Source of the DNA: Prevotella sp. | GTDB taxonomy: Bacteria > Bacteroidota > Bacteroidia > Bacteroidales > Bacteroidaceae | Direction: 5' to 3' | Assembly: GCA_017556145.1 (NCBI GenBank) | Contig: JAFZCU010000180.1 | Coordinates: 1-54,547 of the forward strand | Length of the DNA: 54,547 nucleotides | In this document: positions 22,191-37,366 of the stretch, in pieces | Numbering within the stretch: the first letter of the stretch is position 1 | Layout of the letters: every line of letters begins with the position of its first letter | Made by a program: the position numbers and the translations under genes | The notes under the pieces: model-generated | Database searches by the model: none | Seen by the model: only the letters and a program-made list of their open reading frames with translations | What the model was told of the DNA's origin: nothing

Positions 22191-23159
22191 TTATTTTTGC
22201 AGCAAAAGGCGATAAATGGCAAAAACAATGTAGGCAATCAGCAGCGGATAGCCTATATAATATAAGGTGGTGACGCTGAAAACCACATAGTCGACGGCAC
22301 ATACCGCTGCCAGACCGCCAAGATAAAGAATCGTCTCGCCCAGCGGCAGATGGTGGTAGACATCGTCGACCGTTGCAATGGCCACGATGAGCAGTCCCCA
22401 GACAAAGATGACAAACAAACCGAGATGCCACGGCAGCGCATAGGGATTAAGCGATGGATGATAATAGAAATGGCGCCACATCTCCGGCGCAAAGAGCTGG
22501 ATGGAGCTGTAGAGCACTGCCGATGCCGCCACGAGCAGGCAGAGCAATGTGGGATAAAACGAGGGGATATCGTTGAAATGTACAATCTTTGCGCCCTTGC
22601 GCAGCAAGCGTCGCACACCGTAGGCCCCACCGACAAGTGCGCAGAAGGCAAGGAAAATCAACAGATGGGAATCGGAGAAGAAGTCGATGAACTGACTGAT
22701 GGGATCATCGGGCGATACCGCTAACAAGAGATCTGACTCACGCACCCAACCGAAGGTGAGCTGATCGCGCGCCACCTTCACCCAAACGCTGTCGATGGAG
22801 TCCGTCGGTACAGTGCGGATATCGGCCACCACAAGATGATCGTGTCGACGGAGCGTAATGGAATCCACCAGCGAGAGCATCGGCATGGTTTCCTCACCGG
22901 CCGTGATCTCCGCCGTGAGGATGTCGGGCACGGGCATCATTTCGTTCTGCTGCTCAAGGATTTTAAGCGAGTCGCGTTTGACGACGAAGTTGTAGCCTTG
23001 CGTGTAGTGATGGGTGGTATAGAAAGAGATGGAATCGAGCTGCTGCTCGGTAAGATTCCAGGCATCAGACGTAATCGGACCCTGATTGTAGCAACTGCAG
23101 AGCAGTTGATATAAGATGAAAGATGTAAGAAATATGAGAAGGCTACGGCGCATAGACAT
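22191..23159 (-). CDS. Membrane lipoprotein with SH3-like segment and five helices
   Basis: A 322-residue protein. The N-terminus is a signal sequence with a lipobox-like LCSC near residues 20-23. A soluble segment (about 25-160) follows, ending in WVKVARDQLTFGWVRESDLL, which resembles a bacterial SH3-like fold. The second half has about five hydrophobic helices (roughly 167-185, 203-222, 245-268, 276-296, 299-318). I do not recognise a named family. The start overlaps the end of the U32 gene by 17 bases; an alternative Met two codons later would still overlap. The overlap suggests co-transcription with metA and U32. If the Cys is lipidated, the protein would be anchored at the periplasmic face with a polytopic tail, an uncommon combination. 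Confidence 0.7.
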   Translation of the reverse strand: MSMRRSLLIFLTSFILYQLLCSCYNQGPITSDAWNLTEQQLDSISFYTTHHYTQGYNFVVKRDSLKILEQQNEMMPVPDILTAEITAGEETMPMLSLVDSITLRRHDHLVVADIRTVPTDSIDSVWVKVARDQLTFGWVRESDLLLAVSPDDPISQFIDFFSDSHLLIFLAFCALVGGAYGVRRLLRKGAKIVHFNDIPSFYPTLLCLLVAASAVLYSSIQLFAPEMWRHFYYHPSLNPYALPWHLGLFVIFVWGLLIVAIATVDDVYHHLPLGETILYLGGLAAVCAVDYVVFSVTTLYYIGYPLLIAYIVFAIYRLLLQK

Positions 23160-25074
23160 TCATTTGGCAATGTTGGCAATCGAACTCAAGACGGAAACGG
23201 CGACCATCGCCTAAAACGAGAGAGAGCGGCTCCTGCCATTGAGGCCGCTGACCGCCATATCTGACACAATAGCCGAGGGAATAACGGATGCAATGACGAC
23301 ACTGCATGATGGGCCCCTTGCCGCCTTTCAGTTCATAGGCAGTCAGTTCCTTCACACCGTAGAAATCGCACGCCTCATGGTTTGAAATGTTGTAGAGGTA
23401 GGGATGGTTTAGAGGTGAAAGGTGAGAAAGGCTACGGGTAGGCGAGCTTTGCTCGGGAATGGCAAGAGGTGAGAGATTAGATCTGTCCTCTGAGTCTGCA
23501 GAAGAAGTATTCGGAGAACTCGGAATATTCGGAGTAATCGGAGTATTCGGAGTAATCGGAGTATTCTGAGTAATCGGCGCGGTCTTAAGGCGCTCCACCA
23601 ACTGACGTCGCATGTCGGAGAGCAGGCTATTGGGGATGAAGTAGTTGAAATCGGCAGGGATGTCCACCTCATCACATGAGTAGATGGTATCACCGAGTTT
23701 CGTCAGCTGTCGGATGATGTTTTCGCGCTGCGGAAGCTGCGCAATCTGGTGTTCTGCGGGGACATGAATCAGGCTATCCTCGGCGCTAAGCTCAAAGCCA
23801 TCAGGGACAGCGCGAAGTGCCATGCGGATCGGAATGCGACGTTCAGCACTCGTCTTCGACATCAGACGGTCGAACTCCTGGTCATTGTTGCGGTAGAGTC
23901 GCATGCCAGGCTTGAGTCCCTGCGGCATACGATAAGGATAGATACGGTTGCCTTCGACCTTATTGGCCCGGAAGCCTACCAGCTGACGCGCTTCATTGAG
24001 GAAACAGAGCCCGTCGCCATTAGTGAAGCTCGCCACACCCGCCACATTGAATGAAAGACCACGAATCTCCTTCACAATACCGACATAGGCACCCATTGCC
24101 TTGGGTGTATCCATCGAGGCGATGTCCGGCATTTCCGAACTGCATTCACCTACCCGCAGCCTTTGCCGACCATGCAGGAAATAAGTGGTATAGCCGCGAT
24201 TGAAGGTCTTGTCAAGATCGGGGGTGAAAATGTATTTGCATTCGCCGTGCGAGCTGCGACAATATTGGTCGGGATGACGCTTCACGATTGCATTGAGCCG
24301 CTGACTATAAGCTGCCGTGACGTTCTTCACATAGGAGAGATCCTTCAAACGGCCTTCGATCTTGAACGACGTCGCACCAGCCTCGATGAGTTCCTCAAGA
24401 AGGTCGATGCGGTTCATATCTTTCAGCGAGAGCAGATAGCGGTCGGATACTACCTCCCTACCCTTTGCGTCCTCAAGCGAAAACTGCATACGACAGAACT
24501 GCGCACATTCGCCACGATTGGCACTGCGCCCGAAACAATATTGCGAGGCATAGCAATGTCCGGAATAGCTCACACAAAGGGCGCCATGCACAAACACTTC
24601 AAGCTCTACGTCGGGCACTTGCCTGTGGATTTCCTTCATCTCGTCGAGTGAAAGTTCACGAGCCAGCACCACTCTGGAGAAGCCGACATCACGCAGCCAC
24701 TGTACTTTCTCTACCGTACGATTGTCGGTCTGCGTGGAAGCATGTGCCGCCATCGGCAAGTCATGCATCATCTGGAGTACTGCCATATCCTGAACCAGGA
24801 TGGCATCAACACCGGCTTCCTGCAAGTCATGAAGTAGCTGACGCGTTGCCTCCAGTTCTTCGTCGTAGATGATGGTATTCACCGTGACATAGACGTTCGC
24901 ACCAAAGGGATGCGCATAGTTGCAGAGCTTCCGGATATCGTCGACACTATTGCCTGCAGCAACACGGGCACCGAAACGAGGGGCTCCGATATAAACGGCA
25001 TCGGCACCGTGGTCGATGGCAGCAATGCCATATTCCAGATTCTTGGCGGGGGCAAGTAGTTCTAAGGCTCTCAA
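23143..25074 (-). CDS. U32 family protein, RlhA-type (23S rRNA hydroxylation)
   Basis: A 643-residue U32 protein. Residues 1-270 carry LLAPAKNLEYGIAAIDHGAD, GADAVYIGAPRFGAR, the Cys-containing VHGALCVSYSGHCY and a stretch with GECAQFCR, then SLKDMNRIDLLEELIEAG. A C-terminal half of the DUF3656 kind follows. This layout and length match E. coli RlhA, which hydroxylates C2501 of 23S rRNA. Cysteines at the far C-terminus (CRHC, DCQHCQ) may bind metal. The start is a TTG directly after the metA stop; the two genes are in the same frame separated by just that TAA. A long insert (about 500-545) comes from a period-9 repeat and flanking heptamer-like sequence. Confidence 0.85.
   Translation of the reverse strand: MRALELLAPAKNLEYGIAAIDHGADAVYIGAPRFGARVAAGNSVDDIRKLCNYAHPFGANVYVTVNTIIYDEELEATRQLLHDLQEAGVDAILVQDMAVLQMMHDLPMAAHASTQTDNRTVEKVQWLRDVGFSRVVLARELSLDEMKEIHRQVPDVELEVFVHGALCVSYSGHCYASQYCFGRSANRGECAQFCRMQFSLEDAKGREVVSDRYLLSLKDMNRIDLLEELIEAGATSFKIEGRLKDLSYVKNVTAAYSQRLNAIVKRHPDQYCRSSHGECKYIFTPDLDKTFNRGYTTYFLHGRQRLRVGECSSEMPDIASMDTPKAMGAYVGIVKEIRGLSFNVAGVASFTNGDGLCFLNEARQLVGFRANKVEGNRIYPYRMPQGLKPGMRLYRNNDQEFDRLMSKTSAERRIPIRMALRAVPDGFELSAEDSLIHVPAEHQIAQLPQRENIIRQLTKLGDTIYSCDEVDIPADFNYFIPNSLLSDMRRQLVERLKTAPITQNTPITPNTPITPNIPSSPNTSSADSEDRSNLSPLAIPEQSSPTRSLSHLSPLNHPYLYNISNHEACDFYGVKELTAYELKGGKGPIMQCRHCIRYSLGYCVRYGGQRPQWQEPLSLVLGDGRRFRLEFDCQHCQMNVYAP
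23512..23574. repeat. Longest period-9 array, inside the U32 gene
   Basis: Seven 9-bp units: CGGAGAACT, CGGAATATT, CGGAGTAAT, CGGAGTATT, CGGAGTAAT, CGGAGTATT and CTGAGTAAT. On the minus strand they encode an alternating TPITPN pattern with Gln and Ile variants. Nearby heptamer-like sequence (GAGGTGA, AAGGTGA near 23410; GAGGTGAGAGATTA near 23466) and a CGAGC-TTT-GCTCG hairpin belong to the same insert. Confidence 0.85.
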
Positions 25075-25992
25075 TTACTTAATATCATCGATGTTATACG
25101 GTGTCTCCTGATAAACATAATAGTTGACCCAGTTGGTATAGAAGAGATTGGCGTGAGAGCGCCATGTGACCAGCGGAGGATTGGCCGGATTATTATTCCG
25201 GTAGTAATTCTGCGGAGGAGCCACATCCTTACGGATATCCTTATCACGTTTATACTCATTATCAAGCGTGTTGGGCGCATACTCCAGATGGCCGGTGATA
25301 AAGAATTCGCGTCCTTCGCGAGCCATGACGACGCTGACACCACATTCCTCCGACTCAGCAATCAAACTCAAGGCCGGATTAGCCAGGATATCCTCCCGAT
25401 GAATCTCCGTATGACGGCTATGGGGCATCATAAACTCATCATCGAAGCCACGGAAAATGGGAAGCCTGGGATCAAGCGGCTTCTGCGAAAAGATGCCGAA
25501 CATCTTCATCGGCAACGGATACTTGGGGATGCCGTAATGATAATAGAGCCCTGCTTGAGCGGCCCAACAGATAAACAAGGTACTCGTGACATGGGTACGG
25601 GCCCAAGCAAAAATATCCGTAATCTCGTCCCAATAGCTCACATCCTCAAACTCCAACTGCTCCACGGGAGCACCCGTGATAATCATACCGTCGAATTTCT
25701 CCTGTCGCATCTCTGCAAAGTCACGGTAGAACATCATCATGTGTTCAATCGGTGTATTCTTAGGCGTATGGCTCTTCAACTTCATGAAACTGATCTCCAA
25801 CTGCAAAGGCGTATTGGAAAGAAGACGAATCAAATCTGTTTCCGTTGTAATCTTCAACGGCATCAGATTCAGAATCACAATCCGCAACGGACGGATATCC
25901 TGCGAATGGGCTCGGGTATCGTCCATAACAAATATGTTTTCCTGCTTCAATAAATCAATAGCAGGTAATCTGTCAGGTAATCTTAAAGGCAT
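25075..25992 (-). CDS. metA: Homoserine O-acyltransferase MetA, predicted acetyl-CoA type
   Basis: A 305-residue cytosolic enzyme that acylates L-homoserine in methionine synthesis. The catalytic cysteine is Cys142 (FICWAAQAG), the histidine His235 and the glutamate Glu237 (ITGHLEY). At position 111 (TGAPVEQL) there is glutamate. In the MetA family glutamate at this position goes with acetyl-CoA use, while glycine goes with succinyl-CoA, so this is likely a homoserine O-acetyltransferase despite the usual succinyltransferase label. The gene starts 16 bases after the PP2C gene and is followed immediately by the U32 gene. No promoter was seen in the short gap, so it may be read from the kinase operon. 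Confidence 0.95.
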   Translation of the reverse strand: MPLRLPDRLPAIDLLKQENIFVMDDTRAHSQDIRPLRIVILNLMPLKITTETDLIRLLSNTPLQLEISFMKLKSHTPKNTPIEHMMMFYRDFAEMRQEKFDGMIITGAPVEQLEFEDVSYWDEITDIFAWARTHVTSTLFICWAAQAGLYYHYGIPKYPLPMKMFGIFSQKPLDPRLPIFRGFDDEFMMPHSRHTEIHREDILANPALSLIAESEECGVSVVMAREGREFFITGHLEYAPNTLDNEYKRDKDIRKDVAPPQNYYRNNNPANPPLVTWRSHANLFYTNWVNYYVYQETPYNIDDIK

Positions 25993-26008
25993 GGCGCTGT
26001 TTATTTAT

Positions 26009-26755
26009 TCATTTTACTTCAATCACGCAGGCTGAGACATTATCGAAGCCACCAGCCTTAATAGCGGCCTCACAGAGGGCATCGGCATCCCCACCCGACT
26101 TAAGCATTATCTCTATCTGCTGGTCATTCAGCATATCACTCAATCCGTCACTGCAAAGCAGATAGATATCCGATGGCAGGAAATCATCCGTCATCCTGAC
26201 AATATCCATAAAGGAATTCTTGCAGCCTCCTCCGATACAATTCGTAATGATACTACAATGCTTGGAATAACCCAATATATTGTTAAGAGAATGATCTTTT
26301 GTCAGTTGCAGCAAGGAACCGTTACGCAGACGATACAGACGGCTGTCGCCACAATTCATAGAGAAGAAATCTCCCTCATAGCAGGCTATTCCTACCAATG
26401 TGGTTCCCATGCCCTTATGCTGTTCATCGACATGCCCTTTGGAGTCGATAATCATATTTATGGACTCCAGCCAAACCATCAGCATCTCATTAAGTTCTCC
26501 AGCATTCAATCCGGAAGGAATATCATTGAAAAAAAATTGAAGATTGTGCAAGACGTCGCTACTGGCCACCTCGCCACTCTTATGGCCTCCCATTCCATCT
26601 GCCACAGCAAGGATAGTGCGCTTTACTGAATCTAATTCAATCTTGGTGCTAAAATTGTCATTCCGAATAAAAGAACTGCCAACCAGCACCATATCTTCAT
26701 TATTTTTTCTTACACAGCCGATTCTGCTCGCAGCTGTCACATACAAATTCATCAT
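26009..26755 (-). CDS. PP2C-family protein phosphatase of the kinase/FHA operon
   Basis: A 248-residue soluble PPM/PP2C Ser/Thr phosphatase. The metal and catalytic motifs are complete: KNNED (16-20), VADGMGGHKSGE (Asp52), GMGTTLV (114-120), NCGDSRLYRLR (133-143), LTKDHS, CSDGLSDML (Asp202) and GGFDNVSA (Asp237). It should remove phosphate from Ser/Thr residues placed by the kinase encoded three genes upstream. It is the last of five closely packed genes, eight bases after the FHA gene's stop-side boundary. It lacks extra domains and membrane segments. Its expected partner is the cytosolic face of the membrane kinase or the FHA protein. Confidence 0.95.
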   Translation of the reverse strand: MMNLYVTAASRIGCVRKNNEDMVLVGSSFIRNDNFSTKIELDSVKRTILAVADGMGGHKSGEVASSDVLHNLQFFFNDIPSGLNAGELNEMLMVWLESINMIIDSKGHVDEQHKGMGTTLVGIACYEGDFFSMNCGDSRLYRLRNGSLLQLTKDHSLNNILGYSKHCSIITNCIGGGCKNSFMDIVRMTDDFLPSDIYLLCSDGLSDMLNDQQIEIMLKSGGDADALCEAAIKAGGFDNVSACVIEVK

Positions 26756-26762
26756 TACCAGA

Positions 26763-27323
26763 TTATCTTACAATCACTTGTAAATTAATATTAGCAATAG
26801 TCAGTACATCACCGTTGCTAAGCGACATATCAACATCGGGCTGAAGCGTACGCTGATTCAACTTGGTGCCGTTAGAAGAGTGCTTGTCCGCTATACACCA
26901 ACCTGTATTGACAGCATACTTCAACTGAGCATGCGTACCCGACACGTACGGATACTTCTCAAAGAAATGAGAATACGGACCCGTACGGCGACCAATAATC
27001 GCACCATTGATACCAACGATACGGATATTAAGACTGTCGTTTGCTAACGTCAGAACCGGAATTCCATTACCATTCTGTTGCTGATTTCCTCTTGAGCTTA
27101 CAGAAGTAGCCATATCCATCTTCAGGCTTTCCGACATTCCCGGAAGACCATCGGAGGCTTTCTTGTTAGCGTCAGGAGCAACCATCAAACCGCCACATTG
27201 CGTGCAACGACGCCCAATACCGACACTTCCACAACGGTCACAGAACAATAAAGCCTGTCCACATTGATCACAGAAATGGGAATCGTTGTCTATCTCTTCT
27301 TTGCAAGTCGGGCAAATAATCAT
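26763..27323 (-). CDS. Double zinc-ribbon protein with C-terminal FHA domain
   Basis: A 186-residue protein. Two zinc ribbons occupy the N-terminus (Cys4, 7, 18, 21 and Cys28, 31, 40, 43). A Ser/Gln/Asn-rich linker spans about 50-88. An FHA domain follows (about 88-186) with the phosphothreonine-binding elements GRRTG (111-115), SGTHAQL (128-134) and SSNGTKL (149-155). FHA domains bind phosphothreonine peptides, so this is the likely reader of the operon's kinase. Gaps to neighbours are about ten bases on each side, indicating one transcript. The ribbons resemble those at the N-terminus of the AAA+ protein and in the first gene, which suggests a shared way of assembling. Confidence 0.93.
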   Translation of the reverse strand: MIICPTCKEEIDNDSHFCDQCGQALLFCDRCGSVGIGRRCTQCGGLMVAPDANKKASDGLPGMSESLKMDMATSVSSRGNQQQNGNGIPVLTLANDSLNIRIVGINGAIIGRRTGPYSHFFEKYPYVSGTHAQLKYAVNTGWCIADKHSSNGTKLNQRTLQPDVDMSLSNGDVLTIANINLQVIVR

Positions 27324-27333
27324 AATCGTCGAA

Positions 27334-30300
27334 TTATAAATCTTCTGGTAATATTAACTGATAAGTTTCTTTTGTCACCTCTTCTGGTGGCATCTGTGAA
27401 ACACGAAGCGAGAGTTTCTGAACCGTCGCATCAAGCAAATTACGCATCTCACGGGCATTGCCCCACGACTCATCCTTATTAAGCACCATCTTGTAGATGG
27501 TATCCAAAGCCTTGAACTCTGCGGTAGGTGACAGATTATATTGTTCTTTCTGAGCCATGTGCTTGAAGATGGCCAACAACTCGTCTTCGTTGTAATCATC
27601 AATATGAAGTTTGTGGGTAAAGCGACTGGCTAAGCCTGGATTCATCATCAGAAATTCCTCCATCTTATCCTTATAGCCGGCTGCTATCACAACAAACTTG
27701 CCACGATCATCCTCCATACGTTTCATCAGGGTATCAATGGCCTCCTTGCCATACTGGTCACCACCATCACTGAGCGTATAAGCCTCATCGATAAAGAGGA
27801 TGCCCCCCATGGCCTTGTCACACATATTGTTCACAATCTTCGGGGTTTCACCCATATACTTACCAACCAAAGTAGCACGACTAGCCTCTATTACACGAGC
27901 CGTAGGAAGGATTTCCATAGACTGAAGCACCTCACCCATCTTACGGGCAATTGAGGTCTTACCTGTTCCGGGATTACCAGTCAGAATAAAGTTCATGGCC
28001 ATCTGTTGTACCCTACCGGCACCCATCGCAGCACGCTGCTTCATAAACATGCTCTGCACAGCCAGACGACGGATAGAATTCTTTACGGAACGCATGCCGA
28101 TGAACTCATCCAGTTCGTTCAGCACCTCCTCCAGCGGACGGGCAGCCTCACTCTGGGCTGCAGGAAGATCTTCCTTCGTCAGTTTATACATATCCGATTC
28201 CTGGAATCCAGGATCGCTCATCAGCTTAACCAGTCGTTGACTCTGACGCTCTACAGCACCATCAAAGATGCGACGGGCCTCACGGGCATTGCCAAAATTC
28301 TTGTCGCGACGCAGATAGAGCTGTTCGAATTCACGATGGATAGCAGCCTCAGTGTCCTCATCAATTGTAAAGTTCTTGCTTTTGGACAGGTTGATGAATA
28401 TCTGAGTCAACTCATCAGGCGTATAGTCATCAAAATGAATGGTCTGTGTGAAACGACTCTTCAACCCAGGGTTGGAGTCGATGAAATCATGCATCTGATC
28501 CGTATAACCTGCCACGATACAGATAAACTTTCCACGGTCATCTTCCAATCGTTTCAACAATGTGTCGATGGCTTCCGCACCGAATGAATCACCATCGTTC
28601 GACTTGAGCGTATAGGCCTCATCGATGAACAACACACCACCTAATGCCTGATCTACAAGTTGATTGGTCTTGATGGCAGTCTGTCCGGAATAGCCTGCAA
28701 CCAATTTTGCACGATCAGCCTCCACCAACTGGCCACGTGAGACAATACCCAATGTCTTAAACACATCAGCCATGATACGTGCCACCGTCGTTTTACCTGT
28801 ACCAGGATTACCGGTAAAAACATAATGTTTGCCCTGGAAAGTATTGGTTTCGCCACGTTTGATTTGCAGATTGAGGAAAGCGGCAAGGTTGGATATTTCT
28901 TTCTTCACACCACCTAAACCCACAAGACCATCGAGTTTCTTCAGACACTCTGTATAGTCTACTGCTTGAGGAGCCTCATACGGAATGTCCTGATCCTCAA
29001 TCGTCATCAGCTCCTCATTACTCATCGTTGAGATATTCTCACCTTGCAAACGCTGAGCCTGTTTCTTGCAAATCTGGTCAAACAGTGAGCGCATTGTACG
29101 ACCATTGGCAAAGTCCTTGTCACGAGATTTGTACATCTCTGTGATCATCTTCTTCGTCAAAGCTTCTGCCTGCTCAGAAAACAAATATTTCTTCTCCTTC
29201 GCAAAGACAAGCATGATCTCATAAAGTTGTTCAGGCGTGTAATCTTCAATATTCAGGAAATAATTGAAGCGACTGCGGAAACCAGGATTGATCCGGAAGA
29301 GATTGTCCATCTCCATCCGATAGCCGGCAGCAATAACGACAAACTTTCCGCGATCGTCCTCCATGCGCTTCATCAGTTTCTCCAAAGCCTGCGCACCCTG
29401 ATTATCGCGGTCACCGGCCTGACTGACTGGCGCCAATGTATAGGCTTCATCCACAAAGAGGATACCACCCATCGCCTTGTCACACAAACGGTCTACCACC
29501 TTTGGTGTCTCACCTTGATACGGACTAACCATCTTGGCACGGTCTACTTCAACCACATGTCCACTATCGAGATAACCAATAGCAGCTAATATCTCGCCCA
29601 ATTTACGGGCAATGGTCGTCTTACCTGTTCCAGGATTTCCTGTCAGGATGATATGCATCGACATCTTCTCCTGCTCGCCCAAGCCACGTTCGGCACGCTC
29701 TACACTATTCTTTACAGCATAGGCAATCTCACGGACAGCGTCTTTCACCTCGTCCATGCCAATATACTTATCAAGGTCTTTCAGGATGTCCTCAACAGAA
29801 CGCTCCTCAGGTACGTAGCCCTTGATATCACTCTTCTCTACAACCGTAGCCTGAGCACCACGGCTGATAAACTGTGTGAAGATATCCTCGGCCGTTTTCA
29901 TGGCAAGGTGTGCATTGCCAAAGGTTTCGTCCTTTATCTTGATCTGATACTTGAAATAACGCTTCAGTTGGTCATCGGCCTCCGGGGTGAAATCAAAAAT
30001 GCCATAACGCATCTTAAGGTTCAGTTTGCAGATATCCGTCAGTTCGTTATAGTTTGGTGTCGGCAAACGGAACGTGTACTTGAAACGATTTGCCACTGCC
30101 GGATTACTCTCAAGGAAGTCGTCCAGTCCTTTAGGAAGTCCAGAAATGATGACCACAGGATTGTCATCCCATTTGTCCATCTCAACAAAGAGTTTATCCA
30201 AAGGATTAACCTGATTGGAATACTTGTCAGGCAGTAGTTTTTGGACATTGTCAAAGAACAGGATACCATTCTTTGCCTTTTTGATGTTCTCATCCCACTT

Positions 30301-30639
30301 GTCGACAAAGCGCTGATAGTCGACAGCATCCACCATCGTCAACTTTGGCTTGTCGATAATCTTGTTCTGATAGAAATAGTCGCGGAGAATCTCTGCCAAT
30401 GCAGTCTTACCTGTTCCTGTCTCACCAACAATGATGGCATTAACGGAAATACGCACTTGAACGATATCCTTCCGTGAACGCAGGAAAGCATAGGTGTCGA
30501 CAATGGTTTTCAACTGTTGCTTGATTTGATCAAGACCAACCAACTTGTCAAGCAGGTTCTGGCTTACCATGGGCTGTCCGCACCACTTACAGAACCTGGC
30601 TACGCTCCTGTTTTCTTTATGACAATGCTCACATATCAT
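27334..30639 (-). CDS. Zinc-ribbon protein with four AAA+ modules (CbxX/CfqX-like)
   Basis: A 1101-residue protein. A zinc ribbon (Cys3, 6, 17, 20) is followed by four AAA+ modules. Walker A motifs are at 72-79 (GETGTGKT), 334-341, 610-617 and 888-895 (each GNPGTGKT). Walker B segments are ILFFDN (126-131), ILFVDE (393-398), VLFIDE (669-674) and ILFIDE (947-952). Modules 2-4 are CbxX/CfqX/SpoVK-like, with the Gly-Asn-Pro P-loop and DEAYTL. Module 1 is divergent and lacks the Walker B glutamate, so it may bind but not hydrolyse ATP. CbxX-type ATPases remodel partner proteins (Rubisco activation, type VII secretion). Single polypeptides with four such modules are unusual. The start codon overlaps the kinase stop by one base (TAATG). 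Confidence 0.93.
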   Translation of the reverse strand: MICEHCHKENRSVARFCKWCGQPMVSQNLLDKLVGLDQIKQQLKTIVDTYAFLRSRKDIVQVRISVNAIIVGETGTGKTALAEILRDYFYQNKIIDKPKLTMVDAVDYQRFVDKWDENIKKAKNGILFFDNVQKLLPDKYSNQVNPLDKLFVEMDKWDDNPVVIISGLPKGLDDFLESNPAVANRFKYTFRLPTPNYNELTDICKLNLKMRYGIFDFTPEADDQLKRYFKYQIKIKDETFGNAHLAMKTAEDIFTQFISRGAQATVVEKSDIKGYVPEERSVEDILKDLDKYIGMDEVKDAVREIAYAVKNSVERAERGLGEQEKMSMHIILTGNPGTGKTTIARKLGEILAAIGYLDSGHVVEVDRAKMVSPYQGETPKVVDRLCDKAMGGILFVDEAYTLAPVSQAGDRDNQGAQALEKLMKRMEDDRGKFVVIAAGYRMEMDNLFRINPGFRSRFNYFLNIEDYTPEQLYEIMLVFAKEKKYLFSEQAEALTKKMITEMYKSRDKDFANGRTMRSLFDQICKKQAQRLQGENISTMSNEELMTIEDQDIPYEAPQAVDYTECLKKLDGLVGLGGVKKEISNLAAFLNLQIKRGETNTFQGKHYVFTGNPGTGKTTVARIMADVFKTLGIVSRGQLVEADRAKLVAGYSGQTAIKTNQLVDQALGGVLFIDEAYTLKSNDGDSFGAEAIDTLLKRLEDDRGKFICIVAGYTDQMHDFIDSNPGLKSRFTQTIHFDDYTPDELTQIFINLSKSKNFTIDEDTEAAIHREFEQLYLRRDKNFGNAREARRIFDGAVERQSQRLVKLMSDPGFQESDMYKLTKEDLPAAQSEAARPLEEVLNELDEFIGMRSVKNSIRRLAVQSMFMKQRAAMGAGRVQQMAMNFILTGNPGTGKTSIARKMGEVLQSMEILPTARVIEASRATLVGKYMGETPKIVNNMCDKAMGGILFIDEAYTLSDGGDQYGKEAIDTLMKRMEDDRGKFVVIAAGYKDKMEEFLMMNPGLASRFTHKLHIDDYNEDELLAIFKHMAQKEQYNLSPTAEFKALDTIYKMVLNKDESWGNAREMRNLLDATVQKLSLRVSQMPPEEVTKETYQLILPEDL

Positions 30640-33600
30640 TATTCTACGTCTTTTTCGATTTTCTGCATCAATTCCGAAGGCTTGAAACTGAAATTATCAA
30701 CATTAGGATTGCTGACATTCATCAGACTTGGACTAAAAATAATAAAGTCAAGTACGAAGATGAGCGCCAGAATGCTCCATAGCACATAATGAAGCACACT
30801 CTCACCGCTGATGGAACGCACCTGATCGGTCACATCATCAAGCAAGCCGAACTTCGAACCCTTAAACTTATATGACTTTGTCTTGAAAGTATAATATAGA
30901 GGTTCGAGCAAGGTTGACTTAATATCATTATCAAGCACCTCCGAAATCAGTTTGTTATCGGCTTTCTGGTCACCACGGAAGTCCGTCAGATGACATATGA
31001 GCATATAGACCAATGTAATGGCAATAACCGTTATATTAAACAGGCTCGGATGCGACTGGTCCATATATTTTAAAATTATAATAGGTATAAATGCCGAGAA
31101 AGCACCCGCTAATCCCCATAAGAAGGAGAAGAAAAAGTCATATCCCCTGAAGTAAGCTCTAGTGGCTATAATAATACCCGTCATACCACCCAAAGGCAGA
31201 CCGATGGAAATAAAGGAGTGCCCCAAGAGGAATGTACGGTCTTTGACACCGATGAACAACATCAACAGGATCCATAATGCTGAAAGACCATAGAAGACCA
31301 TGCGCCATACCTTCTCTTTACCTTTTGCACGTTCCCAGCCACTTCTGACATTCTGAATTCTGTTTGAAGTTTCCTCGCGAGCATCAACAAAACGCTTATA
31401 ATAAGTCTGGTGACTGTCTATCCTACCCAACTCATTCAACCAATCCTCCAAGGAATGCTCGTAAGCATATTCCTCCGTAAAGTCGGCAAAGGGGTCTTCA
31501 TGATAGAAAACAGAGAGCCATTGCGTAAACGAGCCATTGCGCATCTCATTCCTGATCTGAGCATAATCGTGTGAATGAATATTACGACCATCTGTCAGTT
31601 CTGTGCCATCAGGCAGGACGTATGCCGGCGTCACGCCTAAAATCCTGCAGAATCGATAAACAGCCGTTTTCGCATCATAGGCACCCAGGCGCTCCCGATT
31701 CTCTTCGCTATTGAAATCAAAACAACGATTGGCTTCATTCTGGACCTCCGCCCATCCATGCATTTGGGCAAAATAAGAGAAACGGTCATCCAGATTGATA
31801 ATGTCAGACATTTGTCTGGCAAACTCATCTTCATCGGCATGTTCAAGATTCTTCATCCGCTCATTCAGCAATTCTCCTACCTTTTGCGGCGTATTAGCAC
31901 TACGAAGGTCATAAGCAGCATTACGATCCAGATTATAGAGGACCTTATAAGCCAAGGTTTCTGAGTAAGGCTGGTTCCTTGTCAGAATACGCAAACTCTC
32001 ACAGGCCATCTTATCCTCATGGCTATACATCCACGACAAAAGTCTGCCATCCGTCAGGCTATGCCACTCATCTTCGTTCAGTTGTTCCTTACCAAATGTC
32101 CTGACGATGTCTTTTAATGATGAAGAGGGATAGCGTGAGAGCAAGGGGATTTCCGGATCTATTTCAAAAACGAGGCGCATCACGGCCACTTTCGCATCAA
32201 AATGCTCCGTCTGGTTGAAATAAGAGCGTAGACGATCAATATTGCATTTGGTGTGGGATTCCAGATATTGATACAAAGTATCGTTCGGATTGACAAGTAA
32301 TAGGCCGTATTCCTTAATATAACTCAGCAAGGAGATGGCCACGCTATGCACGTCGTCACACAAGTTCCCCTTAATGTCCCTATAAGGATAAGTCGGCTCC
32401 ATCATATAAACAGCAGCCATCAGTCCGGCATGTTGGTCAACAGGATATTTGTTCACAACGATATCCTTGACAATCGTACTCAATTTGTCATTGCCACATT
32501 GTTCCAACCATGAACTGATACGACCATTGTATAGATACCCGATAGCCAGTTTTTCGTTTTCCAGCAACATCGGCACCAACTCGTGGATATTATCAGCCAC
32601 CAGATTTCTGTCGGGATCAACAATGAAACTCTTATACTTTAAGAACGGTGAACTCAAATCCACTTTCGGACTTTCCCCTTCAAACCATTTCTCCACCTGG
32701 TCATATCCCCAGCGGTTCAATGGATTAACGACCGTCATACCTTGAACAATCATTTTGACCCGTTCTGGCAATTCGTTCATGCGGGGCAGACGTCCTTCGC
32801 TTTTCTGGCGCATCATCACACGCTCATTGCTGCTCATCGGATTCTCACCGAGCCAGACATACATCAGGGTAACACCCAACGAGTAGAAGTCTGCCGCCGG
32901 CGTCACCTCCACAACGCCATCGATCACATCCGAATACATCTCCGGAGCTGCATAGATGGGTGTCCTGGCCTGAGTCGTCTGATGCAACTTTCCGTCATTC
33001 TCCAACATACTCGAGATGCCGAAATCACCTAGAACCAATTCTGTATGTTCCTTGTCACGGAAGAAAAGGTTACTCGGTTTAACGTCCTTATGAAGAATAT
33101 TGTTGCTATGACAATAGGCCAGGGCAGCCGCTGCCTGCAGAGCAATACGACGGAACTTGTTAATGTCACCATTCAAGTGATAATCGGTCAGTGTTCCGCC
33201 TCGGAGATATTCCATCAGTTCGTAATTCCGGCTCTTGCCATCAACATAAACTTTTCCATAATCAAGGAGAGACACTACCATTTCAAACTTGAAGTTATAA
33301 ATGGTCTTCAGCATCTTCTTGTTAACGTTGAACGTAGGATAATAGATCTTCAAAACATATTCCTCGCCATCTCGCTCTACAAGATAGACCTGAGCCTCAC
33401 CGGAATTCTCGCTGAGACATTGCTTGTTTTTGTATTTGACGCCTTTCAAGACAAAAAATTCCCCTGAAACGTCTTGCGTATCAGGTTCATCATGCCCCAT
33501 AGTACGCATGGTCATATCCATTGCAGCAGAATGATCTGTTGAATCCAATGCCGGGCGCAAAGTCGTATCGTCGCCAGCAGGCTCTATATGGAAAGTATTC

Positions 33601-33656
33601 TCAACATTAGGACTGCCATCCGCAGGAGATGCATTCGAGGTTCTCAAAGTACTCAT
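30639..33656 (-). CDS. Membrane Ser/Thr protein kinase
   Basis: A 1005-residue Hanks-type kinase. Residues 1-65 are disordered and rich in Thr, Ser and Asp (TTLRPAL, MTMRTMG), possible phosphothreonine sites for the FHA partner. The kinase domain (about 68-335) has the Gly loop ENSGEAQVYLV (83-93), the ATP lysine in VLK (Lys103), HKDVKPSN (189-196, catalytic Asp191), DFG (211-213) and APE (238-240), so it should be active. Residues 340-790 are helical with no domain I recognise. Four to six transmembrane helices lie at about 800-985 (for example VFYGLSALWILLMLFIGV and IIILKYM). Both ends of the gene show one-base TAATG overlaps with neighbours, so translation is coupled. Confidence 0.94.
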   Translation of the reverse strand: MSTLRTSNASPADGSPNVENTFHIEPAGDDTTLRPALDSTDHSAAMDMTMRTMGHDEPDTQDVSGEFFVLKGVKYKNKQCLSENSGEAQVYLVERDGEEYVLKIYYPTFNVNKKMLKTIYNFKFEMVVSLLDYGKVYVDGKSRNYELMEYLRGGTLTDYHLNGDINKFRRIALQAAAALAYCHSNNILHKDVKPSNLFFRDKEHTELVLGDFGISSMLENDGKLHQTTQARTPIYAAPEMYSDVIDGVVEVTPAADFYSLGVTLMYVWLGENPMSSNERVMMRQKSEGRLPRMNELPERVKMIVQGMTVVNPLNRWGYDQVEKWFEGESPKVDLSSPFLKYKSFIVDPDRNLVADNIHELVPMLLENEKLAIGYLYNGRISSWLEQCGNDKLSTIVKDIVVNKYPVDQHAGLMAAVYMMEPTYPYRDIKGNLCDDVHSVAISLLSYIKEYGLLLVNPNDTLYQYLESHTKCNIDRLRSYFNQTEHFDAKVAVMRLVFEIDPEIPLLSRYPSSSLKDIVRTFGKEQLNEDEWHSLTDGRLLSWMYSHEDKMACESLRILTRNQPYSETLAYKVLYNLDRNAAYDLRSANTPQKVGELLNERMKNLEHADEDEFARQMSDIINLDDRFSYFAQMHGWAEVQNEANRCFDFNSEENRERLGAYDAKTAVYRFCRILGVTPAYVLPDGTELTDGRNIHSHDYAQIRNEMRNGSFTQWLSVFYHEDPFADFTEEYAYEHSLEDWLNELGRIDSHQTYYKRFVDAREETSNRIQNVRSGWERAKGKEKVWRMVFYGLSALWILLMLFIGVKDRTFLLGHSFISIGLPLGGMTGIIIATRAYFRGYDFFFSFLWGLAGAFSAFIPIIILKYMDQSHPSLFNITVIAITLVYMLICHLTDFRGDQKADNKLISEVLDNDIKSTLLEPLYYTFKTKSYKFKGSKFGLLDDVTDQVRSISGESVLHYVLWSILALIFVLDFIIFSPSLMNVSNPNVDNFSFKPSELMQKIEKDVE

Positions 33657-34594
33657 TATAAATCGTCTTTAATTTCTTTTCGTGTATTCTTTCCCAAAAT
33701 AATCCATTTTCCACCCAATTGCGGCTTGGCGCAACCACATGGGCTGGAATGCAAGGCATGTTTGAAGTTGCATTCCCATGCAAGGCGGACTCCCTGAGGC
33801 TTGCAGGCCATCGCGTAATTGCGAACTTTGGCAGGTTGAGGCTGTGGTTGCTGTGCCATCTGCTCCAGAATTTCATTCAGACGCTTCAAACGTGCTTCTT
33901 TCCGAGATTCCAGATCATTTTTATCAACTGAAGCTTCTTTTTCTTCTATCACCGGCTGGGCGATGCCCTGATCACGCGCCAACAATGTCAGCACACGTTC
34001 GCGCAACTTCCTGCTCAGCTGATCACGCACCTTGTCACGCTCTGAAGACAAGGGAATAACCATTTCCATCTTCTGGATTTCTTTGGTCAAGGCCTCCATC
34101 TCCTTGTATTCCGGCGTTAGTTGCAATTCAGCCAGCAACTGGTGAGCTTCATCAGTCAAAGGAGTACCACACTGCTTGCAGAAAGAAAAGTCGTTGAGTG
34201 TATGGCAAGTGGGACATACTATACCGCCACGGGGATTACCGCACTCAGGACAAAAAGCTTCCTTTCCAGTAAGATGTGCTCCGCAGAAAGAGCATACGTC
34301 CTTACGGATATAGTGATGGCAAATCTCGCAGAAATCAGCATCAGGGTCAATCTCCGCTCCACAATTCGGACAACTTGTCATACCTATTGGTTTTCCACAG
34401 GAAGCACAGAACATGGCTTCAGGTTCATTCACTGTACCACAATATGGACATTCGATGCCTTGCGCTGCATGAGCACGCATCTGCTGCAGGGAATCTACTG
34501 ATGATACTTTTTCCCTAGTCAGTTCTTCATGCCGCAACTCTTGCATACCACTGGCATCTTGGACTGGGTTTTGGGTAATATCTTCGTTCATCAT
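33656..34594 (-). CDS. Multi-zinc-ribbon protein, first gene of the kinase operon
   Basis: A 312-residue soluble protein. Four tandem zinc ribbons span residues 49-142, with paired CxxC motifs at 49/52, 63/66, 75/78, 89/92, 101/104, 115/118, 127/130 and 139/142. A charged helical region follows (about 150-248; coiled-coil-like, SRKEARLKRLNEILEQM). The C-terminal segment has four more cysteines (264, 275, 286, 288) in a pattern reading MACKPQGVRLAWECNF and PCGCAKPQLGGKW; I do not recognise it, but it looks like a metal site. The start is one of two adjacent ATGs. It is directly behind a consensus promoter and coupled to the kinase by TAATG. A scaffold or client-recognition role is an inference. 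Confidence 0.9.
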   Translation of the reverse strand: MMNEDITQNPVQDASGMQELRHEELTREKVSSVDSLQQMRAHAAQGIECPYCGTVNEPEAMFCASCGKPIGMTSCPNCGAEIDPDADFCEICHHYIRKDVCSFCGAHLTGKEAFCPECGNPRGGIVCPTCHTLNDFSFCKQCGTPLTDEAHQLLAELQLTPEYKEMEALTKEIQKMEMVIPLSSERDKVRDQLSRKLRERVLTLLARDQGIAQPVIEEKEASVDKNDLESRKEARLKRLNEILEQMAQQPQPQPAKVRNYAMACKPQGVRLAWECNFKHALHSSPCGCAKPQLGGKWIILGKNTRKEIKDDL

Positions 34595-34620
34595 AACATG
34601 TTATTTTCACAACTTAGGCG

Positions 34621-34652
34621 CAAAGTTAACAATTATTTTGAAAAAAAACAAA
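34621..34652 (-). promoter_or_regulatory. Promoter of the five-gene kinase operon
   Basis: On the minus strand TTTG (34652-34649), a 20-bp spacer and TAACTTTG (34628-34621) give a full consensus match. The -7 box lies 26 bp before the first start codon. The -33 box sits inside the T-run of the terminator of the gene upstream. Confidence 0.82.
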
Positions 34653-34678
34653 AAAAGCGCCGTAAATTTACATTTACG
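34641..34678 (-). terminator. Terminator of the ABC-F gene
   Basis: Read on the minus strand, CGTAAAT and ATTTACG pair perfectly (34678-34672 with 34667-34661) around GTAA, then GCGC and a T-rich tract follow. The stem is AT-rich, so strength is uncertain. Its T-run overlaps the -33 box of the kinase operon promoter. Confidence 0.6.
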
Positions 34679-34714
34679 ACGACATTTTTATTCAATTATG
34701 GTCTTTGGCCACCT

Positions 34715-36700
34715 TTAAACGGCCAATTCTTCGCTTAATTTCTCCCAACGATCCATTTCTTCATCAAGACATTTCTTCGTTGAAGTATACTCCATCACGA
34801 GCGTCATATCCGAAGCATTCTCCGGCAACATCAGCAAATCGTCAAGCTCTTTCAAGCGAGCCTCCATCTTCTCTATCTTCGATTCAGATTCCTTTACAGC
34901 CTTTTCAATCCTCCTGATGCGTTTCTGTTGTTCTTTACGCTCCGCATATTCAAGGGCCTTTGACAACGTTTCAGAACCTACAGCAGCCTTATTATCAGCT
35001 ATTTCCACCCTATATGAAGGAGACATGTCACCCAATGGAATACGATTGGTTTTTTGAGAACCGGCATCTACTTTCCCTAATTCATTCAACTCTGATATTT
35101 TCTTACTTCTAAGGAAGTCATAGATACCACCAAGATGCTCCCTTACCCTACCGCCACCAAACTCATAAACCTTCGTCACTAATCCATCGAGGAATTCTCG
35201 GTCATGACTTACGATGATAGCCGTACCATCGAAAGCCTTAATAGCCTCCTTCAGAATATCCTTCGAGGGCATATCGAGGTGGTTTGTAGGCTCGTCCAGA
35301 ATCAACAGATTGACAGGTTCCAGCAGCAGACGGATCATCGCCAGACGACTCCTTTCGCCACCACTGAGCACCTTGACCTTCTTATCACTCTCCTCACCGC
35401 CAAACATAAAGGCGCCAAGGATATCGTTAATGCGAAGACGGATATCACCCTTTGCCACATTGTCGATGGTCTGGAAGACAGTCAGACTCTCGTCAAGCAA
35501 CTGTGCTTGATTCTGAGCGAAATAGCCAATCTGGATATTATGTCCGATTTTCAATTCTCCCGTATAAGGAATCTCATCCATGATACACTTTACCAGCGTC
35601 GACTTTCCCTCACCGTTCTTACCCACGAAAGCCACCTTTTCTCCTCGCTTGATGGTCAACGTTACATGATCAAACACGGTATGGGCGCCATAATCCTTGC
35701 GGACCTCATCGCAGATAACCGGATAGTCTCCGCTGCGCAGACAGGGCGGGAACTTCAGATGCATCGCAGAATTGTCTACCTCATCAATCTCGATGGGCAC
35801 GATCTTCTCCAGTTGCTTGATCTTCTGCTGCACCTGAACAGCCTTCGTAGCCTTATATCGGAAGCGCTCTATAAAATCCTTCATATCAGCCACTTCCTTC
35901 TGCTGGTTCTCGTAAGCCCTCAACTGTTGTTCACGACGTTCCTTTCGCAATACAACATACTCGTTATACTTCACCTTATAGTCGATCACCCGTCCACAGG
36001 AAATCTCCAACGTACGGTTCGACACATTATTGATAAAGGCTCTATCATGGCTCACTAATACAACGGCACTCGACGATTGAGCCAAGAACTGCTCAAGCCA
36101 TTGGATACTCTCGATATCCAAATGGTTTGTGGGCTCGTCGAGCAACAACACATCAGGTTTCTGGAGCAGAATCTTCGCCAATTCGATACGCATACGCCAA
36201 CCACCGGAGAACTCAGAAGTAGGGCGTTCAAAGTCTGTACGCAGGAATCCGAGTCCCATCAACGTCCGTTCTATCTCCGCCTCATAGTTCTCAGCCCCCA
36301 ACATCATATAGTGTTCATGCTCGGTGGTATATTTTTCGATAAGTGCCAGATAACTCTCGCTCTCGTAATCAGTACGCTCCGACAGTTCCTGATTCATCTT
36401 ATCGATGCGTATTTTCATGTGTGTGATATCGGCAAAGGCTTTCTGTGCCTCCTCGCGAACCGTTGTGTCGTCTTGCAGGATCATCACCTGTGGCAGATAG
36501 CCGATACGACAGTCCGTAGGCACACTGACATTGCCTGCTGTGGGTTTCTGCTGTCCACAGAGAATCTTCAGCAACGTCGACTTACCAGCTCCGTTCTTGC
36601 CCACCAAGGCGATGCGGTCGCGGTCGTTGATAACGAAACTGGCATCTGCGAACAGGGGTTTCACCCCAAACTCCACTTTCAATCCTTCTACTGATATCAT
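34715..36700 (-). CDS. ABC-F family ATPase (Uup/YheS-like)
   Basis: A 661-residue soluble protein with two ABC cassettes and no membrane part. Cassette 1 has GKNGAGKST, FSGGWRMRIELA and LLLDEPTNHLD. An inter-cassette linker of about 80 residues is rich in charged helices (ERREQQLRAYENQQKEVADM). Cassette 2 has GKNGEGKST, LSGGERSRLAM and LILDEPTNHLD. A C-terminal coiled coil (about 590-660) resembles Uup or YheS rather than EttA. ABC-F proteins act on ribosomes to rescue or regulate elongation; some give antibiotic protection. This one is in a housekeeping setting. The start codon overlaps the stop region of the LolA-like gene by four bases, and a hairpin terminator follows. Confidence 0.92.
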   Translation of the reverse strand: MISVEGLKVEFGVKPLFADASFVINDRDRIALVGKNGAGKSTLLKILCGQQKPTAGNVSVPTDCRIGYLPQVMILQDDTTVREEAQKAFADITHMKIRIDKMNQELSERTDYESESYLALIEKYTTEHEHYMMLGAENYEAEIERTLMGLGFLRTDFERPTSEFSGGWRMRIELAKILLQKPDVLLLDEPTNHLDIESIQWLEQFLAQSSSAVVLVSHDRAFINNVSNRTLEISCGRVIDYKVKYNEYVVLRKERREQQLRAYENQQKEVADMKDFIERFRYKATKAVQVQQKIKQLEKIVPIEIDEVDNSAMHLKFPPCLRSGDYPVICDEVRKDYGAHTVFDHVTLTIKRGEKVAFVGKNGEGKSTLVKCIMDEIPYTGELKIGHNIQIGYFAQNQAQLLDESLTVFQTIDNVAKGDIRLRINDILGAFMFGGEESDKKVKVLSGGERSRLAMIRLLLEPVNLLILDEPTNHLDMPSKDILKEAIKAFDGTAIIVSHDREFLDGLVTKVYEFGGGRVREHLGGIYDFLRSKKISELNELGKVDAGSQKTNRIPLGDMSPSYRVEIADNKAAVGSETLSKALEYAERKEQQKRIRRIEKAVKESESKIEKMEARLKELDDLLMLPENASDMTLVMEYTSTKKCLDEEMDRWEKLSEELAV

Positions 36701-37317
36701 CGTTTGTCTATATACTTATAATTCTTGTATTTTTCGGCTGGAAAACGCAACATTTCGTCAGTAATCCCACCAGACTTGAAATTAGAGATGGTAATAGTAG
36801 TCCAAATAAAGGCTATCTTAATACGAACACTGATAGGCTCGTAGGTCTGGCGTTTCACCAGAGCATGTACCTCCTTGATACCCTTTGCACCCTTTTTAGC
36901 CTTCAACGTAATCATAAGTCCCTGATCATGACTCGCAATGCTATAGTCAAAATTATCCGGCTCGAACTTGAATTTACTTGAATATTTATCCGACTTATTG
37001 TTGTTCGCATCATGTATTTCGATCTCATTCTTTTTTTTCTTCTTGATGGTATACACGGTCACACCGTCGTTCCACGAGTTCATCTTAGCATCCACAAACT
37101 TACTCTTCTTGCCTTTATACCAAATGGTACCATAAGTCTTATAGATGCCGGTAATGTTCACGTCGTAACGTAGCGTGGCACCTTGTTCTCCAAAAACCTG
37201 CTGATAAGCCTGGTTGAAAATTCGTCTCGCCTGTCGTGCATTAGGATTATCCTCAGCCTGTATAGAGGTCAGTACCGACAACAGCAATGCCACGGTTAAT
37301 AATATCTTATTTCTCAT
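36697..37317 (-). CDS. LolA-like outer-membrane lipoprotein carrier homologue
   Basis: I choose the start at 37317 (MRNKILLTVALLLS), giving 206 residues with a signal peptide ending near SIQA; an upstream in-frame start adds 13 residues that overlap the promoter box. The mature part is beta-rich with KGKKSKFVDAKMNSWNDGVTVYTI-like spacing (KGKKS, FVDAKM, WNDGVTVYTI), resembling Bacteroidetes LolA-like proteins. These chaperones carry lipoproteins through the periplasm. A lysine run (KKKKKNE, near residue 100) and the segment SVRIKIAFIWTTITISNF are visible. It overlaps the ABC-F start by four bases. The function is inferred from fold-like pattern, so confidence is moderate. Confidence 0.75.
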   Translation of the reverse strand: MRNKILLTVALLLSVLTSIQAEDNPNARQARRIFNQAYQQVFGEQGATLRYDVNITGIYKTYGTIWYKGKKSKFVDAKMNSWNDGVTVYTIKKKKKNEIEIHDANNNKSDKYSSKFKFEPDNFDYSIASHDQGLMITLKAKKGAKGIKEVHALVKRQTYEPISVRIKIAFIWTTITISNFKSGGITDEMLRFPAEKYKNYKYIDKR

Positions 37318-37336
37318 TTTTTTCAATTTCAAGGTG

Positions 37337-37344
37337 CAAAAGTA
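37337..37344 (-). promoter_or_regulatory. -7 box for the LolA-like/ABC-F unit
   Basis: TACTTTTG on the minus strand fits TAnnTTTG and lies 19 bp upstream of the chosen start at 37317, supporting that start. No clear -33 TTTG is visible. Confidence 0.6.
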
Positions 37345-37366
37345 CACAATTCTCACGGATTATTCG

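Follow-up and report, generated by a model that had tools for sequence, protein, structure and literature searches.

Identifying what bacterial Ser/Thr kinases phosphorylate is difficult. In TerY-phosphatase-kinase triads, a kinase and a PP2C phosphatase with zinc ribbons occur together with a von Willebrand factor A (vWA) protein, TerY, and the Rubisco activase CbbX, which has a single AAA+ module and is encoded beside the Rubisco genes, reactivates Rubisco. A kinase-FHA-phosphatase pathway regulates the type VI secretion system (T6SS), and in Agrobacterium an N-terminal phosphothreonine (pThr) peptide of TssL, modified at Thr14, is bound by FHA (excerpt of PMC3953482). Self-binding FHA proteins are a class described for GarA, OdhI, and DgcB (excerpt of PMC6733907), and GAP1-N2 GTPase systems with a kinase, a zinc ribbon, PP2C, and vWA represent a theme described as restricted to Actinobacteria (excerpt of PMC7159879). 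In this study, we analyzed a stretch of 54,547 nucleotides from Prevotella sp. (contig JAFZCU010000180.1; the window), which contains on the minus strand, at 26009-34594, five intact open reading frames (ORFs) encoding, in transcription order, a zinc-ribbon protein (ZnR), a Hanks-type Ser/Thr kinase (STK), an AAA+ protein (AAA4), an FHA-domain protein (FHA), and a PP2C-type Ser/Thr phosphatase (PP2C). The kinase repeats a short threonine tag in its N-terminal tail, and we see an even chance that this cassette encodes a phosphorylation circuit whose main substrates would be its own parts, with the AAA+ protein as a dismantling effector.

An earlier note, made from the DNA letters alone, had named the five genes in this order, and ORFs and Pfam domains agree with it. 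ZnR (33656-34594, 312 aa) matched Pfam DZR and STK (30639-33656, 1005 aa) matched Pkinase, both above the curated cut-offs. AAA4 (27334-30639, 1101 aa) has an N-terminal zinc ribbon followed by four CbbX/SpoVK-type AAA+ modules (four AAA stretches above the Pfam cut-offs). FHA (26763-27323, 186 aa) combines a double zinc ribbon with an FHA domain (DZR and FHA above cut-offs), and PP2C (26009-26755, 248 aa) scored above its Pfam cut-off and has the Asp motifs of the family. The two TAATG couplings that the note had described are one-base overlaps at 33656 and 30639, and its two short gaps measure 10 bases (AAA4/FHA) and 7 bases (FHA/PP2C); with this spacing, the five genes likely form one operon.

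We next compared the cassette with the described systems. It has the kinase, phosphatase, and FHA reader of the T6SS threonine phosphorylation pathway (PpkA-PppA-Fha), all three together, and differs from it in their partners, a CbbX-type AAA+ protein and zinc-ribbon proteins. The TssL peptide given in the excerpt, DLPpTVVEI, lacks the Arg of the cassette tag (PMC3953482). The T6SS sheath (TssC/VipB, PF05943) was found in none of 13 chosen carrier genomes, in a search that matched one of 14 named controls, E. coli, and had no positive control from Bacteroidota. The cassette resembles the TerY triad in having a kinase and PP2C with zinc ribbons, and no vWA domain was found in the five proteins by Pfam (for the AAA+ protein, among the best 25 of 75 families). 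TerD (PF02342) was present in one of the 13 carriers, on contig C18 of a genome (G493) with its cassette on contig C2, and was not found at the cassette locus in any of them. No other ESX genes were detected among the nine genes scanned, that is, the five and four neighbours at 23143-37356. Given the missing sheath, the TerD gene on another contig, and the lack of vWA and of ESX neighbours, we rejected membership in T6SS, TerY, or ESX loci, and the view of the earlier note that this writer-reader-eraser set with an AAA+ partner lies outside the known settings is upheld.

The AAA+ protein has its core in common with CbbX, SpoVK, and EccA1 and is set apart from them by a chain of three to five modules, a degenerate first module, and the zinc ribbon at its N-terminus. 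None of the four neighbours scanned is a Rubisco, spore, or ESX gene. FHA of some cassettes resembles GarA, OdhI, and DgcB (excerpt of PMC6733907) in carrying a Thr-containing tail that is possibly its own ligand, whereas the FHA tag of the cassette is C-terminal and occurs in only four lineages, and it is the kinase that carries repeated copies. Like the GAP1-N2 systems, the cassette groups a kinase with a zinc ribbon and PP2C; the excerpt of PMC7159879 on those systems includes a vWA gene and names neither FHA nor a CbbX-type AAA+ protein. The kinase domain of STK is similar to that of the MADS kinase MAD6 (PADLOC, 2.2e-36), but STK reached 77.2 bits with the NCBIfam equivalog model for MAD6, below the cut-off of 460, and the only other MADS match among the five proteins was a weak AAA one (mad8). 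A known defence system was rejected, as the PADLOC matches of the five proteins were to generic kinase or AAA models. No paper on this five-gene set was among the best open-access literature matches listed, and the combination, with its repeated tags and an AAA+ chain of varying length, is apparently undescribed while its parts are known.

Threonine tags and signalling proteins

The N-terminal tails of the kinases, with a recognised length of 33 to 292 residues, repeat the tag Thr-[Ile/Leu/Val/Met/Phe]-[Arg/Lys], a feature that the earlier note had not described. In the window kinase, the tail comprises residues 1-61 (33474-33656) and contains three tags by motif count, T3 in MSTLRT, T32 in DTTLRP, and T49 in DMTMRT. 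The tails of 86 of 95 kinases (nine without a recognisable tail were omitted) contained 254 tags against a shuffle mean of 16.1 (largest value 27 in 200 shuffles), a pooled figure that is inflated by the relatedness of the sequences, which this test ignores. Tag density was 37.6 per 1000 residues in the tails versus 2.0 in the rest of the kinase, and 79 of the 86 tails had at least one tag. Because of the inflation by relatedness, seven kinases were also tested singly (L-numbers refer to individual loci and G-numbers to individual genomes), and in six of them, L107, L109, L110, L111, L112, and L114, none of 2000 shuffles reached the observed count. Among 56 tags in 15 chosen kinases, 40 had Asp or Glu at position -2, 24 had Lys at -1, and 21 had Pro at +3. 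A control set of 121 other proteins encoded at these loci contained 18 such motifs within the first 90 residues, and no protein had two.

The tag is also found in other cassette proteins. All four cassettes from outside the class with the FHA gene in reach encode a tag at the FHA C-terminus: EKTIRV (L109), DATVRV (L110), EKTVRI (L112), and DKTVRI (L142). The last of these loci was retrieved when the motif definition was already in place, and its kinase tail has four tags. In ZnR, T[ILVMF]RP precedes the first ribbon in 28 of 90 proteins, with 0.2 expected, and all 28 lie among 78 close relatives. The AAA+ protein has few tags for its length.

To see where else the tag occurs, we searched three whole genomes (G313, G267, and G803) with a DNA pattern for [D/E]-K-T-[I/V]-[R/S] that left out GAG and GTG codons. 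Total matches were about equal to those of a reversed-pattern control (17/18, 23/22, and 19/18, respectively). The only clusters were the kinase tails in the cassettes, with 4, 3, and 3 hits, and G267 and G313 each had one further match at the FHA C-terminus. None of the 47 matches outside the cassettes was in tandem, and a genome-wide set of tagged clients was rejected for these genomes. For 35 of these 47, no ORF of at least 60 codons contains an in-frame [DE]KT[IV]R, and the 12 in-frame ones include one at an ORF start and one 18 residues from a C-terminus. This confinement of tag clusters to the cassette in three genomes supports the description of the system as self-contained in the earlier note.

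The kinase itself has the catalytic motifs of an active enzyme and is predicted to be anchored in the membrane. Among the 90 of 95 kinases that are longer than 900 aa (five shorter ones were omitted), DFG is present in all 90, HxD..N in 89, and the Lys motif as written in 87. The kinase domain spans residues ~95-321 and is followed by ~450 residues without a recognised fold, in which units of the form 'G(R/S)...W(L/M)' repeat by eye and which might, as a guess, form helical repeats; Pfam matches to this part were all below the cut-offs (E 0.019 or worse), and its assignment to a known domain was rejected. Near the C-terminus, Kyte-Doolittle analysis gave five hydrophobic stretches at residues ~783-983 (30708-31310), four of them clustered and the fifth after a conserved loop of ~55 residues, which supports the membrane kinase of the earlier note. 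With the kinase domain inside the cell, the C-terminus would be outside; beyond the last stretch there are ~22 residues in the window kinase and ~317 in that of L109. In three loci (L058, L062, and L065) the kinase ORF was shorter than 650 aa in longest-ORF calls, possibly owing to interrupted frames or assembly errors.

The other signalling parts appear similarly intact. The residues of the pThr pocket are present in the window FHA (R112, S128, H131, and N151) and kept in most members. Motif integrity of kinase, phosphatase, and FHA is good overall, with a few members failing single motifs, and the three together have the motifs of a Hanks kinase-FHA-PP2C writer-reader-eraser module. ZnR has eight CxxC pairs, equivalent to some four zinc ribbons, and its conserved C-terminal Cys/His domain shows the invariant pattern W-x-C-N...H..P..C..P..GG.W. 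Zinc ribbons occur in three of the cassette proteins, ZnR, AAA4, and FHA.

The AAA+ chain and the spread of the cassette

AAA4 of the window has Walker A motifs at residues 72, 334, 610, and 888. Modules 2-4 have the Walker B residues Asp-Glu, whereas module 1 has Asp-Asn, a divergence that was likewise absent from the earlier note. Asp-Asn was found in module 1 of 87 of 93 AAA+ proteins, and a rule of 'always Asp-Asn' was rejected on account of the other six; five of these have, by alignment, Glu-Asn (L107), Ser-Asp (L113), Asp-Ser (L114), or Asp-Asp (L115 and L116). Overall, the Walker B Glu is missing from module 1 in 92 of the 93 proteins and replaced by Asn in 88, Asp in 3, and Ser in 1. 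Judging by this motif, the first module seems incapable of ATP hydrolysis.

Module 1 is followed by two to four canonical modules, giving a total of three to five. Hence, the quadruple AAA+ protein of the earlier note describes the window correctly but not all relatives, nor does it allow for the divergent Walker B of module 1. In a tree of 20 proteins, module 1 formed its own clade (for L113 and L108 it was not detected) and the other modules fell into two classes, A and B. Their order after module 1 is A-B-A in the window and L117, A-B-A-B in L109 and L142, A-B-B in L110, A-B-B-B in L112, B-A-B in L107, L113, and L114, and B-A in L116 and L119. With a module count that varies in this way, stacked rings would be a likelier arrangement than a single ring made by one chain. 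The cassettes thus provide a natural series of three-, four-, and five-module chains for studying tandem AAA+ proteins. An aromatic motif resembling a pore loop is present in 47 of the 57 non-first modules of the 20 proteins. AAA4 scored 700.8 bits with the NCBIfam EccA model (cut-off 466.65) and also passed the SpoVK and CbbX models, probably because four modules add up in each score, and the closest solved structures were those of EccA1 (9lur) and CbbX (3syk, 3zuh), with alignments over one module each. In L107, the four-module AAA+ gene is followed by a free-standing AAA+ fragment of 174 aa (15127-15651) with a degenerate Walker A and an intact Walker B.

We then asked how far the cassette extends beyond this strain. 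A genome scan with AAA4, from which the best 80 of 199 relatives were kept, gave loci titled Prevotella, Prevotellaceae, or Xylanibacter. Kinase and FHA are present in all 80, PP2C in 79, ZnR in 77, and all five genes in 77, including those of the rumen strains Xylanibacter ruminicola D31d (L048) and Prevotella ruminicola KHT3 (L036); in L018, L025, and L051 the contig ends inside the kinase. Fifteen further cassettes came from the genus (L120), the family (L113-L119), the order (L107 and L108), and from outside the class (L109-L112 and L142). Twelve of them have all five genes in the same order, among them L119, with ZnR cut by a contig end, and L113, in which FHA and PP2C were both found by tblastn; the cassettes of L111 and L118 are cut by contig ends. 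The kinases are down to ~25% identity across cassettes, and the distance matrices of the five proteins in 16 cassettes correlate with coefficients of 0.84-0.97. The earlier note had proposed a joint search with the five proteins to see whether their order is kept, and it is kept in relatives across the phylum; the neighbourhood is conserved beyond this strain and is not always part of a secretion or tellurite-resistance locus.

The distribution is patchy. Genome searches were made within the phylum of the window, in samples that overlap and each contain the window genome. A kinase-tail profile detected the cassette in 60 of 150 genomes sampled from the genus (18 of 69 when only high-quality genomes are counted), in 14 of 201 from the family, in 3 of 198 from the order, and in 5 of 247 from the phylum. 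With a wider profile, it was detected in 3 of 295 genomes from the class and in 8 of 395 from the phylum, including a marginal one (G379, E 6.5e-4). Among the Prevotellaceae loci listed, the cassette lies at one fixed place between housekeeping genes. Of 90 genus genomes without the cassette, 8 were searched; MetA, which follows the cassette in the window, was found in 7, and in 5 of these it is directly preceded by PepO, which in the relatives inspected lies ahead of the cassette. Thus, presence or absence of the cassette looks clean at that site. Taken together, the five genes appear to form one portable, patchily distributed signalling unit. An origin from a mobile element or phage was rejected, as searches of viral contigs, phages, and plasmids gave no relative of the kinase tail (16 pattern stretches in viral contigs, none confirmed); a plasmid search with ZnR gave five partial ribbon matches covering at most 29% of the query.

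Possible mechanism and alternative explanations

Of the explanations considered, the following circuit best fits the tag pattern, the intact motifs, and the linkage of the genes. A signal would be sensed via the long tail of the kinase, its membrane part, or the zinc-ribbon protein, and the kinase would phosphorylate the tags of its own tail and those of its partner proteins. FHA would bind the pThr tags, giving a multivalent complex at the membrane, and the zinc ribbons of the three proteins would stabilise this complex or recruit the AAA+ protein. By means of two to four threading modules and a regulatory one, the AAA+ protein would pull the complex or its client apart, and PP2C would erase the tags and reset the circuit. 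With its low tag density, the AAA+ protein is more likely to be linked to the circuit via the kinase, FHA, and zinc-ribbon proteins. The overall interpretation of the earlier note is supported in part, for the writer-reader-eraser set with an AAA+ partner and not for phosphorylation control of the AAA+ protein. In such a circuit, the probable substrates, their reader and eraser, and a probable effector motor would all be encoded by five neighbouring genes, and the simple tag lends itself to peptide assays.

Apart from the inflated pooled tag figure, several observations weigh against this circuit. The tag form is absent from 7 of the 86 tails (L024, L108, L115, L116, L117, L119, and L120), and the count of one tag in L118, equalled in 142 of 2000 shuffles, lacks significance. 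FHA and ZnR of the window lack the exact tag, ZnR having DITQNP, and T[ILVMF]RP occurs in none of the 13 ZnR proteins of the further cassettes (in a recount of 91). FHA of L114 lacks the pocket Asn. L108 shows only kinase and AAA+ protein, with an extra gene in between and no ZnR found in ~416 bases before the kinase, and its module 1 keeps Asp-Glu, the sole exception among the 93. L051 has no PP2C at the locus, where FHA is followed directly by MetA (~5278-5299). As separate observations, the kinase tails of L115 and L116 have tandem units like HATGKAVRG (DDVHATGKAVRGN), a different Thr-containing repeat, in place of the usual tag, and the extra gene of L108 (4177-4746) is nucleotidyltransferase-like by eye and has no Pfam match.

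Some cassettes have additional genes that could point to conflict or envelope stress. SUKH proteins are immunity proteins, and the sole SUKH genes (PF09346, E ≤ 0.001) of G267 and G313 lie at the cassette, with a weaker match, below cut-offs, in the cassette of G263. A DUF1963 gene directly follows PP2C in L107 (17431-18075) and, by eye, in L113. Together with the patchy distribution, this would fit a module that senses toxin or envelope damage, with SUKH or DUF1963 proteins as sensor or neutraliser in some lineages and the AAA+ protein disassembling the target. We regard such a module as unlikely, since PF09346 had no match in the window genome (82.7% complete) or in G594, G021, G263, G413, and G803, the three SUKH cassettes share one family (f135) and may go back to one event, no toxin gene was recognised in the 10 neighbours scanned, the PADLOC matches are generic, and the fixed site between housekeeping genes is unlike a defence island. 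Somewhat less improbable, though still doubtful, is a private phospho-tag code in which repeated pThr tags of the membrane kinase and a terminal tag of its reader would give a multivalent, switchable assembly, to be disassembled by a multi-tier AAA+ machine of two module types with a non-hydrolysing sensor module, and in which SUKH or DUF1963 proteins would tie the system to toxin or envelope stress in some lineages. Such a bacterial disassembly machine gated by phosphorylation, if real, would differ from the secretion, tellurite, and defence systems known so far.

The cassette could instead regulate metabolism or growth in the manner of GarA and OdhI, with unphosphorylated FHA inhibiting a housekeeping enzyme, kinase and phosphatase acting as a toggle, and the AAA+ protein reactivating the enzyme, as CbbX does with Rubisco. 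The FHA proteins with a tag on their own chain in four lineages resemble self-binding GarA, OdhI, and DgcB as described in the excerpt of PMC6733907, and EccA1 and CbbX are the nearest structures to the AAA+ modules. However, the majority of the genomes sampled in the order and phylum lack the cassette, which would be odd for a core metabolic switch, it is membrane-bound with a further zinc-ribbon partner, and the window FHA has no tag of its own, so we give this possibility as little weight as the conflict module. An unrecognised regulator of secretion or surface assembly, as in T6SS threonine phosphorylation or ESX with EccA, seems still less probable. The kinase-FHA-phosphatase pathway known for T6SS (excerpt of PMC3953482) and the score above the EccA cut-off speak for it, but no sheath was found in the 13 carriers, no secretion gene was recognised among the neighbours scanned or read, and the EccA score loses weight with the SpoVK and CbbX models also passed. 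Every domain of the cassette belongs to a large general family, and the five genes could be ordinary signalling genes that are co-located without a joint function. This is strongly disfavoured, to the point of being very improbable, by the gene order kept across the phylum, the correlated divergence of the proteins, and the occurrence of the genes at one site either all together or not at all.

Neighbouring genes and other features

The SUKH proteins inside or next to the cassette are encoded at 6789-7583 in L109, 4665-5198 in L111 (weak), and 10445-10966 in L112. In L115, PP2C is followed by a gene for a protein with a sub-cut-off Sel1 match, and L116 has a similar gene. None of these SUKH, DUF1963, or Sel1-like neighbours was seen at the window cassette.

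In the window, ABC-F flanks one end of the cassette, and MetA and a U32 peptidase lie at the opposite end. These genes and a LolA-like one are the four neighbours scanned, all of them ordinary genes, in line with the housekeeping flanks of the earlier note. MetA (25075-25992) scored above the NCBIfam cut-off for homoserine O-acetyltransferase and below that for O-succinyltransferase. In L013, L048, and L074, the gene between ABC-F and ZnR encodes an M13 peptidase (PepO-like; identified by Pfam in L013), and this extra gene is unrelated to the cassette. The PepO-like gene is missing in the window (34594-34715), in L006-L008, and in L019, and a gap similar to that of the PepO-containing loci suggests the gene in many others.

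No RNA family reached the gathering score in the window. A weak terminator-like hairpin lies between ABC-F and the cassette (34658..34681, minus strand), and such sites are not enriched in the region (7 found versus 9.2 expected in shuffles). Upstream of the cassette, at 34621-34652 on the minus strand, a pattern search identified TTTG-N20-TAACTTTG, the promoter of the earlier note, with a consensus that we take to be of the Bacteroidota type; this pattern has 8 matches in the whole window, with 0.60 expected.

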